A stretch of 64,000 nt of DNA, from positions 1 to 64,000 of the forward strand of contig JADLEQ010000019.1 in assembly GCA_020846005.1 (NCBI GenBank), read 5' to 3'. This stretch comes from Polyangiaceae bacterium (GTDB lineage Bacteria; Myxococcota_A; Polyangia; Polyangiales; Polyangiaceae). The position numbers and the translations under genes were made by a program. Positions 26,769 to 34,250 of the stretch are shown one piece after another; the first letter of the stretch is position 1; each line of letters starts with the position of its first letter. The notes below the pieces were generated by a model. The model was given only the letters and a program-made list of their open reading frames with translations, was not told the DNA's origin and ran no database searches.

Positions 26769-27953
26769 TCAGCAGCCGCAGCCGCTCGTGGTGCACGTGA
26801 GCTCGACGCGGAGCGAGTAGCTGCCGCTGTCGTCGAACGCCAGCGGCGCGGTGCGACCGTCGACCACCAGGAAGTACCAGTTGGCGGCAGGCGCGACGAA
26901 CGTCCGCGTGAAGGTCCCGGACCCGACCGACCAGCAGCCCGCGCCGAGGCCACACTCCGCCATCGAGCAGGTCGTGCTCTCGTGGATCTTGAACACGGCG
27001 TCCCAGCTCGTCGCGCTGGCGCACTTGCTCCCCAGCGTCAGCGTGACGTCGATCTGATCGCCCGCCTTCAGGAAGATCCGGTACGTCCGATCGCGACCGA
27101 AGTCCCACCCGCAGCTCCCCCCGTACTCGGGTGCGGTGTCGTCCGCGGAGCAGGTGTTGGTCGACTCGAAGAAATCTGTGACCGAGGCGATGAGCCGGCT
27201 GATCGTGCGCGCCTGTCCGCAGCCGGCACGGCTCTCCGAGCCGGCGCTGCACGCCGACGACGGCATCGCGCAGGTGGGGCCGCCGCCGCTGCCGCCGCTC
27301 CCCGAGGTCCCGCCGGACGCGCCGCTCCCGCCCGTGCCGGCGGTGCCTCCGGCGCCGCTCGTGCCGCCGCTGCCGCTCGCGCCTCCGCTGCCGCTCGTGC
27401 CCCCCGCACCGCTCGCGCCCCCGCTGCCGCTCGTACCCCCGCTGCCGCTCGTGCCCCCCGCACCGCTCGCACCGCTCGCACCGCCCGCACCGCTCGCACC
27501 GCCCGCACCGCTCGCTCCACTCGTGCCACTCGTGCCGCCGCCGCTCCCGCCGAGGCCGCTCGCGCCACCCGTCGTGCCGCCAGTGCCCCCTGGGGCTCCA
27601 CCGGCGCCTCCGGGCGCGCCGCCCGTACCCCCGAGCGATCCACCCGCGCCGCCCGTCGCGGAGCTGCCGCCTCCGCTGCCGCTCGCGCCTCCGGTACCTC
27701 CTGGGGTACCGGAACCGCCGCCGCTCCCGCCGCCGCTCCCCGCACCCGCGTCTCCGCCCGTCCCCGCGGCGCCCGCAGCCGCAGCGATGCCACCGCCGCC
27801 ACCCGAAGCACCGGCGCCTCCCGCCGCGCCCCCGCCGCCTCCCACCTGAGGCCCGGGACCGGTCGGCGGCTCGTCAATCAACGTTCCCTGCGCGCAGGCC
27901 GCGACGCCGAGCGCCGCCCCCAGCAGGAGCGTCGAGCGGACAGGGGACCTCAT
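26769..27953 (-). CDS. collagen-like Gly-rich lipoprotein
   Basis: A 394-residue protein with a lipoprotein signal (RSTLLLGAALGVAACAQG). About 190 residues of Gly-X-Y-like repeats follow (GGASGSGG, GGTSGSGG, GASGAGG units). The C-terminal domain of ~170 residues is Cys-rich, with a beta-sandwich look (DRTYRIFLKAGDQIDVTLTLGSKC, WYFLVVDGRTAPLAFDDSGSYSLRVELTC) resembling bacterial pre-peptidase C-terminal domains. I infer a surface stalk carrying a binding domain. A GGAG ribosome site precedes the ATG by about 9 nt. No enzymatic motif is present. Confidence 0.7.
   Translation of the reverse strand: MRSPVRSTLLLGAALGVAACAQGTLIDEPPTGPGPQVGGGGGAAGGAGASGGGGGIAAAAGAAGTGGDAGAGSGGGSGGGSGTPGGTGGASGSGGGSSATGGAGGSLGGTGGAPGGAGGAPGGTGGTTGGASGLGGSGGGTSGTSGASGAGGASGAGGASGASGAGGTSGSGGTSGSGGASGAGGTSGSGGASGSGGTSGAGGTAGTGGSGASGGTSGSGGSGGGPTCAMPSSACSAGSESRAGCGQARTISRLIASVTDFFESTNTCSADDTAPEYGGSCGWDFGRDRTYRIFLKAGDQIDVTLTLGSKCASATSWDAVFKIHESTTCSMAECGLGAGCWSVGSGTFTRTFVAPAANWYFLVVDGRTAPLAFDDSGSYSLRVELTCTTSGCGC
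27277..27843. repeat. Gly-rich coding repeat tract
   Basis: Nearly 570 nt of imperfect short repeats, mainly variants of the 9-nt unit CCGCTCGCA/CCGCTCGTG read from the minus strand as Gly-X-Y triplets. The tract is likely prone to length change by slippage or recombination. Confidence 0.7.
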
Positions 27954-30959: not shown

Positions 30960-31099
30960 GGGCGCGGCATCATCGACCCACTCGGGACGCGCAGGCAACC
31001 GCGCTTCGCGCGACGGCGGCCACTCCCAACCTCCGGGTGAAGGGCCTGCGCGGGCAGCCCGCTTGTCACCCGTGGCCCCGCGGCGCTAGAGGCCGAAGT

Positions 31100-32185
31100 A
31101 TGCGATACGACGACTCGATCCGGATCACGCGCTTCGCCAGCTCGGGCGGCTGAGCGGCGAAGGTAGGTCCGGCGGACCTACGCGCGCTCACGTCCGGCCT
31201 CGTGACTGGCGCGGGGAAGGACGTGGTCGTCGGCCTCGACACGGCCGACGACGCGGGAGTGGTGCGCCTCGCGGACGACATCGCGGTCGTCACCACGGCC
31301 GACTTCATCACCCCGCCGTTCGACGATCCGCGCGGGTTCGGCGCGATCGCGGCGGCGAACGCGCTCTCCGACGTCTGGGCGATGGGAGGCGAGCCGATCG
31401 CCGCGATCAACCTGTGCGCGCTGCCGCGGGAGGTGCCGACGGAGATCGCGCGCGAGATCCTGGCCGGCGCGGCGGACAAGGTGCGTGAGGCGGGCGCCGC
31501 CACGGTCGGCGGGCACACCGTCGTCGGGCCGGAGCTGCTCTTCGGGCTGGCCGTCACGGGCCGGGTGCACCCGGGCCGGGTCTGGCGCAACGGGGGGCTC
31601 CGCCCCGGCGACGCGCTGGTGCTGACGAAGCCGCTCGGATGTGGGCTCTACGTCACCGCGGCTCGAGCCGGGCGGCTGGCTGCTTCCGAGGTGCAGCGGA
31701 TCTCGGAGACGATGATGCAGCTGAACGCTGTCGCGAAGCGCACCCTCGAGCGGTTCGCGCCGTCGGCGGCCACCGACGTGACCGGCTTCGGGCTAGCCGG
31801 CCACGCGCTCGGGATGGCGCGCGCGAGCGGGGTCCGAGTTCGCCTCGACCTCGCGTCCCTGCCACTCCACCCGGAGGCGCTCCGGCTCGCCGAGGAGGGG
31901 TCGACGTGCCGGGGCGAGCGCGAGAACCGGGCCTGCCTGGCGGGCGAGGTGCGAGTGGCGAGCGGCGTCGAGGGCGCGCTGGCGCACTCGATCCCGTTCG
32001 ATCCGCAGACGTCCGGGGGCCTGCTCGTCGGCCTCGACGCGCGCGCCGCCGCGGAGGCGGTACGCGCCCTGCGGACAGCGGGAGTCGAGTCGGCGTGCGT
32101 CGTCGGCCGGGCCGAGGCGTCCGCGACGCCCGAGGTGCTGCTCGATCGCAGCGAAGGGGCGGGCTGGCCACCCCACGGCTCCTGA
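31100..32185 (+). CDS. selD: selenide, water dikinase, itself a selenoprotein (Sec18 read from TGA)
   Basis: A protein of 361 residues that makes selenophosphate from selenide and ATP, the selenium donor for selenocysteine and selenouridine. The true start is the ATG at 31100, with AGAGG 7 nt upstream. Codons 1-17 read MRYDDSIRITRFASSGG. Codon 18 (31151-31153) is an in-frame TGA, and codons 19 onward read AAKVGPADLRALTSGLVTGAGKDVVVG. The TGA falls where SelD enzymes have their catalytic Cys or Sec, three residues before the essential Lys (Lys21 here). A stem-loop fitting a bacterial SECIS follows. The rest of the protein is canonical (DFITPPFDDPRGFGAIAAANALSDVWAMGG, VGGHTVVGPELLFGLAVTG, DVTGFGLAGHALGM, DPQTSGGLL). 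Calling from the ATG- or GTG-like codon near 31202 removes the active site. Confidence 0.9.
31163..31181 (+). promoter_or_regulatory. bacterial SECIS element in selD
   Basis: A perfect 8-bp stem (GTAGGTCC with GGACCTAC) closes a GGC triloop. The loop starts 17 nt after the TGA and has G in its first two positions, as described for bacterial SECIS hairpins bound by SelB. It lies entirely inside the coding sequence for VGPADL. Confidence 0.8.
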
Positions 32186-32222: not shown

Positions 32223-32546
32223 ATGATCACGATGACGGAGCTCGCGGCCGAGAAGGTGAAGGAGATCGCTCACGCGGAGGGCCTCGAGGGCCAGGGGCTG
32301 CGCCTGCGGGTCATCGGGGGCGGGTGCGCGGGGTTCCAGTACGATCTCTATTTCGAGGACAAGCCGACCGCGATGGATGAGCAGTTCGAGTCTCGCGGGA
32401 TCCAGCTCTTCATCGATCCGCTGAGCTATCAATACCTGGACGGCACCGAAATCGACTACGTCGACGGCGTGCACGGCTCCGGCTTCAAGTTCGGGAACCC
32501 GAACGTCAGCGGCTCGTGCGGGTGCGGGTCGTCGTTCTCGGCCTGA
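32223..32546 (+). CDS. erpA: A-type iron-sulfur carrier (ErpA/IscA family)
   Basis: A 107-residue A-type carrier that receives and delivers [Fe-S] clusters to apo-enzymes. The three invariant cysteines are present: Cys35 in IGGGCAGFQYDL, and Cys99 and Cys101 in GSCGCGSSF. The pattern FIDPLSYQYLDGTEIDYVDG...GFKFGNPNV is typical of ErpA. The strong AGGAGGA site is 10 nt upstream of the ATG and can be masked by a hairpin. It lies 37 nt after selD on the same strand, so the two could be transcribed together, although no functional link beyond selenium/sulfur chemistry is obvious. Confidence 0.9.
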   Translation: MITMTELAAEKVKEIAHAEGLEGQGLRLRVIGGGCAGFQYDLYFEDKPTAMDEQFESRGIQLFIDPLSYQYLDGTEIDYVDGVHGSGFKFGNPNVSGSCGCGSSFSA

Positions 32547-32787: not shown

Positions 32788-32877
32788 GCTTCAGAAAGAA
32801 CCGCAGGCTTTCCAGAAACTTTGTCCTGGACAGATGCGTTTCCCGAGTTGCCAGCCCGAAAGAATCCCGGAGGCAGC

Positions 32878-33756
32878 ATGGCCAGCGAAATCGACCCGTC
32901 CGTCTCGCGCTACATCACCCTCGTCCAGTCCTATCCGCAGCTCGATCGCGAGGATGAGCTCGCCCTCACCCGCGAGTGGATCGCGAGCGGCTCGCCCCGC
33001 GCGGCCGACGCCATCGTTCGGGCGCACCTCCGGTACGTCGTCTCCATCGCGCTCAAGTACCGGCGGTACGGCATCCCGCTGTCGGAGCTGATCGCCGAGG
33101 GCAACTTCGGCATCGTGCACGCGCTGAAGAAGTTCGAGCCCGAGCGAGGGAACCGCTTCGTGACCTACGCGGCTTACTGGATCCGAGCCTACATCCTCAA
33201 CTACATCATCCGGAGCTGGAGCCTGGTCGGGGTCGGCTCCGGCGCGCTGCGCTCGAAGATGTTCTTCAAGCTCCGGCGCGAGCGGGTCCGCGTGGTGAAC
33301 CAGCTCGGCGAGGGCGAGGAGGCCGAGAAGGCGCTCGCCGAACGACTGGGGCTGCCCCGCGAGCAGGTGATGGCGATGCTCCGGCGCCTGGAGGCCCGTG
33401 ACGTGTCGCTCGACACCCGCGTGTACGACGACTCTGCGACGACCCTCGGCGACACCCTCGTCTCGCCCGATGTGGACCAGGAGTCGCAGCTCGCGTCCGA
33501 CGAGCTCGGTGACTACGCGATCGAGGCCGTCCGCGCCGCGGTCGGGCAGCTCGACGCCCGCGAGCGGTTCATCGTCGAGAAGCGCCTGCTCGCCGACGCG
33601 GCCGATGAGCTGTCGCTCGCCGAGATCGGGCGGCGCCTGGGCGTGTCGCGCGAGCGGGCGCGCCAGCTCGAGGCGCGCGCGAAGCGGAAGCTGAAGTCGA
33701 GCATCGTCGAGCTGTCCGACGCGAACGGCGGGTGGCTCCAGGCGCGGGCCGCCTGA
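32878..33756 (+). CDS. rpoH: RNA polymerase sigma factor, RpoH (sigma32) type
   Basis: A 292-residue group 3/4 sigma70-family factor that directs RNA polymerase to stress promoters. It begins MASEIDPSVSRYITLVQSYPQLDREDELALTREW. Region 2 includes AHLRYVVSIALKYRRYGIPLSELIAEGNFGIVHALKKFEPERGNRFVTYAAYWIRAYI. Region 4 ends with the helix-turn-helix LSLAEIGRRLGVSRERARQLEARAKRKLK. The R-Y-G-(I/L)-P-x-x-(D/E)-L-I-x-E-G-N and YWIRA motifs are those of RpoH and its myxobacterial relatives (SigB/SigC type). Myxobacteria have several paralogues, so the exact stimulus is uncertain. The ATG has GGAGG 5 nt upstream. The stop codon lies in the loop of a hairpin that is repeated 38 nt later. Confidence 0.85.
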   Translation: MASEIDPSVSRYITLVQSYPQLDREDELALTREWIASGSPRAADAIVRAHLRYVVSIALKYRRYGIPLSELIAEGNFGIVHALKKFEPERGNRFVTYAAYWIRAYILNYIIRSWSLVGVGSGALRSKMFFKLRRERVRVVNQLGEGEEAEKALAERLGLPREQVMAMLRRLEARDVSLDTRVYDDSATTLGDTLVSPDVDQESQLASDELGDYAIEAVRAAVGQLDARERFIVEKRLLADAADELSLAEIGRRLGVSRERARQLEARAKRKLKSSIVELSDANGGWLQARAA

Positions 33757-33866: not shown

Positions 33867-34250
33867 GCGGTCCGAGCAGAGCAGGTGATCGCTCGCCCCC
33901 AGGGCGAGAGGAAAGTCCGGGCTCCACAGGGCAGGATGCCGGGTAATCCCCGGTGAGGGTGACCTCGAGGAAAGTGCAACAGAGAGCAGACCGCCCGCGC
34001 GGGCCACGTGCCCCGCGGGCAAGGGTGAAACGGTGGGGCAAGAGCCCACCGCGCGACCGGTGACGATCGCGGCACGGCAAACCCCATCCGGAGCAAGGCC
34101 ACATAGAGGGGCGTTCGAGGGCTGCCCGCCCGAGCCCCAGGGTAGGCCGCACGAGGCCCGCGGTGACGCGAGTCCCAGAGGAATGATCGCCACGCGCCCC
34201 CGAGCGATCGGGGCCGCGACAGAACCCGGCTTACGCGGTGCTCGGGCCGC
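33867..34250 (+). ncRNA. rnpB: RNase P RNA, bacterial type A
   Basis: The catalytic RNA that cleaves 5' leaders from tRNA precursors. Ends are set by the 12-bp P1 helix: GCGGTCCGAGCA (33867-33878) pairs with TGCTCGGGCCGC (34239-34250), allowing one G-U. The near-invariant AGAGGAAAGTCCGGGCTCC follows P4's 5' strand at about 33907. GGGTGAAACGGTGGGGCAAGAGCCCACC, the AGAGGAATGATCGCCAC block and the ACAGAACCCGGCTTAC 3' signature are all present. The length of ~384 nt is typical. It lies 110 nt after rpoH with its own predicted promoter. Reading frames crossing this region on either strand are not genes. Confidence 0.95.

Follow-up and report, generated by a model that had tools for sequence, protein, structure and literature searches.

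According to Zhang et al. (2006, PMC1794560), no bacterial selenoproteins are more widespread than FdhA and SelD. Selenocysteine (Sec) is encoded in 19% of SelD genes and invariably occupies one and the same site (Mariotti et al., 2015, PMC4561486). Sec-containing SelD is thus counted among the commonest bacterial selenoproteins (PMC1794560, PMC4561486, PMC13188914). In the bSECIS model, the hairpin that accompanies the UGA has a loop of 3-9 nt and a stem of 4-16 bp and lies 16-37 nt from the UGA, and the model also asks for a G within the first two loop bases and an MFE at or below -7.5 (PMC13188914).

Here, we analyzed a selD gene in a 64,000-nt stretch of DNA from a Polyangiaceae bacterium, the whole of which is called the window. 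The first-pass annotation of the window had read this gene as a selenoprotein and pointed out that some SelD proteins contain Sec, in line with the published surveys (PMC1794560, PMC4561486). Considering the sequence, its homology, the hairpin, the complete Sec machinery and the co-occurrence with SelA, all of which were observed directly, the gene almost certainly encodes a Sec-containing selenophosphate synthetase. Descriptions of Sec-SelD go back to 2006 or earlier, and the window SelD shares no more than 49% identity with the SelDs compared. It is therefore a new, divergent member of a described group, and the arrangement is well known and common to many bacteria.

The selD Gene and Its Reading Frame

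The features at the selD locus were as follows.

31088..31092, forward strand: AGAGG, a weak Shine-Dalgarno-like motif 7 nt 5' of the ATG, with a putative function judged from sequence only
31100..32185, forward strand: selD, selenide water dikinase (selenophosphate synthetase), 361 aa with predicted Sec18, assigned by TIGR00476, AIRS domains and alignment
31151..31153, forward strand: TGA codon for the predicted Sec18, in the catalytic Cys/Sec column of the SelD alignment
31202..32185, forward strand: truncated ORF of 327 aa with a GTG start, without Sec18 and Lys21, the output of a stop-respecting gene caller
32223..32546, forward strand: erpA-type iron-sulfur insertion protein (NF010147 ErpA, 117.9 bits against a cut-off of 117)

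The ATG at 31100 opens a selD frame of 361 codons, which closes with the stop codon TGA at 32183-32185. The first 17 codons (MRYDDSIRITRFASSGG) run into the TGA at 31151-31153 and the frame continues as AAKVGPADL, as the first-pass annotation had read it together with the upstream AGAGG, while the remaining 343 codons are open and all invariant residues are present. The window SelD scored 330.7 bits with TIGR00476, the SelD equivalog, for which the curated cut-off is 125, and both AIRS and AIRS_C domains were found in it with Pfam. The window SelD was aligned with 20 SelD proteins of its GTDB family, 21 sequences in all. U18 fell in the invariant Cys/Sec column and Lys21 followed three residues on, which confirmed the proposed catalytic position of the TGA. 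Moreover, K21, D51, D68, D91, GGH 137-139 and other residues were aligned and invariant in the window SelD.

The mechanical ORF list started the gene at GTG 31202 and gave 327 aa without U18 and K21, so the truncation predicted for automatic calling did occur. That this ORF exists leads to the proposal that GTG 31202 is the true start, with non-coding DNA upstream and the TGA as the ordinary stop of a short leader. This is highly improbable, as such a start would remove the catalytic residue, the invariant Lys21 and an N-terminal block conserved in the homologues. The correction of annotation is the main use of reading the gene as a Sec-SelD, since standard calling would truncate selD and miss a 70-aa SelW-like gene elsewhere in the genome.

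The erpA-type gene starts 37 nt downstream of selD and has Cys, not Sec. It is possibly co-transcribed with selD. Two further features of the window were recorded, and upstream of one of them, the RNase P RNA gene, is a gene for an RpoH-like sigma factor (32818-33756).

33873-34248, forward strand: Bacterial RNase P RNA class A (261.7 bits)
26769-27953, reverse strand: predicted secreted protein, in which a long stretch of low complexity is rich in Gly, Ser and Ala (GGASGAGG repeats)

A SECIS-Type Hairpin Follows the TGA

The TGA is followed by one further feature.

31163..31181, forward strand: bacterial SECIS apical hairpin, with an 8-bp stem and the loop GGC at 31171-31173, in agreement with the bSECIS model

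The hairpin GTAGGTCC-GGC-GGACCTAC has a perfect 8-bp stem, the spacing from the TGA to the loop is 17 nt, and the MFE of the 50-nt stretch starting at the selD TGA was -23.5 kcal/mol. The structure described in the first-pass annotation was therefore found at its place, and it agrees with the bSECIS model in loop, stem, distance and energy. In the window, Rfam at gathering scores returned only the RNase P RNA and a tRNA, and no SECIS family.

The energy of the hairpin was unexceptional for GC-rich DNA, with a z of -1.3 against dinucleotide shuffles and -0.8 against synonymous codons. A perfect stem of at least 8 bp with the right loop was also obtained in 476 of 20,000 synonymous recodings of the window selD (2.4%). 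Energy-only tests on this one gene, by shuffles or synonymous recodings, were weak and were dropped as proof. The comparison between genes is the stronger evidence. Across 101 selD genes, correctly placed stems had a mean of 7.1 bp in the 70 TGA-type genes compared to 4.3 bp in the 31 Cys-type genes (p = 8e-11, a value that ignores relatedness). The exact register of the window hairpin was found in 2 of the 31 Cys genes, compared to 23 of the 70 TGA genes, which belong to several phyla. Counted from the U of the UGA, the SECIS loop lies at about position 31 in the family's main SelD clade (L026-L037) and at position 21 in the window gene. The loop is thus about 10 nt further downstream in that clade, and the hairpin register differs between SelD lineages. 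A hairpin energy within the shuffle range and a register unlike that of most family members count against reading the window gene as a Sec-SelD.

The Sec Machinery Is Encoded in the Same Genome

The host genome (G000; 5.70 Mb, 99% complete, assembled in 119 contigs) contains the following genes.

G000, contig C25, 106686-106781: tRNA-Sec, 67.2 bits against the Rfam cut-off of 47, ARAGORN anticodon TCA
G000, contig C28, 121263-122297: selB, 247.3 bits against a cut-off of 242.25
G000, contig C34, 32883-34208: selA, 467 bits against a cut-off of 267.9

The tRNA-Sec is the sole copy above the Rfam cut-off in the genome and has a UCA anticodon. Its acceptor arms are complementary (GGAAGCGC...GCGCTTCC-G-CCA), with G as the discriminator and an encoded CCA. 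The three genes are on different contigs, and with all of them in the genome the Sec machinery is complete. The expectation that selA, selB and selC would be found elsewhere in the genome was correct, and a genome without selB and tRNA-Sec, named in advance as evidence against Sec, is not what we observed.

Distribution and Co-occurrence of SelD and SelA

Among 60 genomes sampled from the same GTDB family, 23 had a SelD above the cut-off and 14 had a TGA-containing SelD. Thirteen of these 14 were read, with the G027 locus left out, and all of them had the TGA at the catalytic codon. SelA was above the cut-off in 20 of the 23 genomes with SelD and in none of the 37 without it. It was present in all 14 genomes with TGA-SelD, above the cut-off in 13 and only as a fragment in G027. 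The sample included one further genome of the genus, G033, which had neither a SelD above the cut-off nor SelA. Across phyla, the 80 best-scoring named SelD loci of public genomes had TGA (57/80) or Cys (23/80) at the catalytic codon. The TGA in the window is aligned with Cys or Sec in the homologues, which is one of the criteria for a selenoprotein decoded through a bSECIS.

Separately, G027 apparently has a pair of SelD genes (L023, G027:C245:468-1388), of which one is of Cys type and the other has TGA. This may be a real duplicate or the result of contamination, listed as 8% for this genome.

TGC and TGT are each one substitution away from TGA and the assembly is in 119 contigs, so we considered a Cys-type selD that was misread, or that carries a nonsense mutation as a decaying pseudogene. 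An error or mutation would need to strike exactly the codon where relatives have TGA, and in a gene with a SECIS-type hairpin right after it, which is mostly absent from Cys-type genes. The genome also has the full Sec machinery, and the other 343 codons are open with the invariant residues all there. We regard this explanation as very unlikely, and a Sec-SelD is the preferred reading.

Relationships of the Window SelD

A quick tree was built from 101 SelDs. The window SelD was outside the 12-member clade of its own family and outside the pair formed by G036 and a Myxococcota MAG, a placement that is weakly supported. No fewer than 12 switches between Sec and Cys are needed on the tree, and well-supported branches force 7 of them. 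This suggests that several SelD lineages may exist within one family, through exchange or loss. A search of plasmids returned only SelDs below 60% identity.

Other Selenoproteins and the Use of Selenium

In-frame TGA codons were screened in 2.66 Mb of sequence from the same genome, overlaps included, which is under half of the 5.7 Mb. A screen by codon usage returned mostly adjacent gene pairs in the same frame, and its strict form missed selD itself. A motif-aware screen, which looked for a TGA beside a redox-type motif and for coding signal to either side of it, yielded nine candidates in the 2.66 Mb, of which the SelW-like gene was clear and selD was again unlisted. Since both screens failed to list selD, absence from them is weak evidence.

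The codon-usage screen also bears on a general reassignment of TGA to Trp or Gly, which an in-frame TGA within a conserved gene could reflect. Widespread in-frame TGA was not found in the 2.66 Mb, the column in the 21-gene alignment contains only Cys codons or TGA and never Trp or Gly, and TGA is also the terminal stop of selD itself. Reassignment is thus exceedingly improbable, even more so than a start at GTG 31202, and decoding as Sec remains the favored interpretation.

The search for other TGA-containing selenoproteins, recommended in the first-pass annotation, yielded a second gene and a further candidate.

G000, contig C14 (L226:17819-18031), reverse strand: SelW/Rdx-like selenoprotein gene, 70 aa, GTG start, CHAU motif, PF10262 63.3 bits
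G000, contig C80, 59082-59378, forward strand: AhpC/TSA (peroxiredoxin-like) match containing a single in-frame TGA, from the family search

The SelW/Rdx-like protein reads VSIVIRYCHAUNYRPRAARLAAEIEREKGVAAQLEVGRPGQFDVLVDGAVIFSKAEAGRFPEHEEILGKL, and its gene carries its own perfect 8-bp hairpin. Of the 30 family genomes searched, 16 have a TGA-form Rdx/SelW gene, and SelA is present in 15 of these 16. Most of the readable TGA genes have a hairpin at the same place. The Rdx genes of G002 and G028, which lack SelA, are without TGA. G031 has a TGA-type SelW-like gene (L288, G031:C330) and a Cys SelD, and SelA was not found in it, possibly owing to an assembly gap. The AhpC/TSA-like match is a third selenoprotein candidate. 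Among the molybdopterin enzymes of G000, the matched parts of an Fdh-alpha homologue, a NarG homologue and a NasC/Fdh-like protein had no in-frame TGA, and the selenouridine synthase MnmH (MnmH/YbbB) was not found in this genome. The CMD/AhpD and thioredoxin families gave no TGA members.

Since neither an in-frame TGA in formate dehydrogenase nor a selenouridine synthase was found, Sec seems to be reserved for SelD and small redox proteins, as judged from a partial genome screen. On the same partial screen, a Sec-SelD without a detected Sec-FdhA or selenouridine synthase is a slightly unusual combination. If true, it would mean that Sec is retained on account of SelD and SelW-type proteins. 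We put forward only tentatively, and with more doubt than confidence, that in this lineage the whole Sec trait is maintained for a selenoproteome of very few members, namely SelD, a SelW/Rdx-like protein and perhaps a Prx-like protein, neither Sec-Fdh nor a selenouridine synthase having been detected, and that Sec-SelD was replaced or exchanged more than once in the family.

Proposed Mechanism

We infer that the UGA is decoded and that the window SelD is active. SelB-GTP with Sec-tRNA-Sec would bind the hairpin just 3' of the UGA, and Sec would be delivered at codon 18, so that the ribosome reads through. Sec18, predicted to lie in a flexible N-terminal loop three residues before Lys21, may then help to convert selenide and ATP into selenophosphate, from which SelA would make Sec-tRNA-Sec. 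Because SelA needs selenophosphate for this step, SelD would need its own product pathway to be made. The uses of selenophosphate found in the genome are only SelD itself, the SelW/Rdx-like protein and possibly the Prx-like protein.

Comparison With Known Systems

These results describe a GC-rich bacterium in which the Sec system is complete and selenium use is apparently limited to SelD and small redox proteins, and the general understanding is unchanged by this Sec-SelD. Compared with the Cys-type SelD, as in E. coli, the window SelD belongs to the same enzyme family and has the same domains, but the gene has UGA/Sec instead of Cys at codon 18. In Sec traits maintained by SelD (Zhang et al., 2006, PMC1794560), a Sec-SelD is likewise present, and here too no Sec codon was found in FdhA. 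Most such organisms have the selenouridine trait, whereas MnmH/YbbB was not found here and a SelW-like selenoprotein is present in the genome. With the known Sec-SelD family (PMC1794560, PMC4561486), the window gene shares the catalytic TGA, the downstream SECIS hairpin and the presence of selA, selB and tRNA-Sec in the genome, while it differs in being at most 49% identical to the SelDs compared and in lying, by a weakly supported placement, outside the 12-member clade of its own family.
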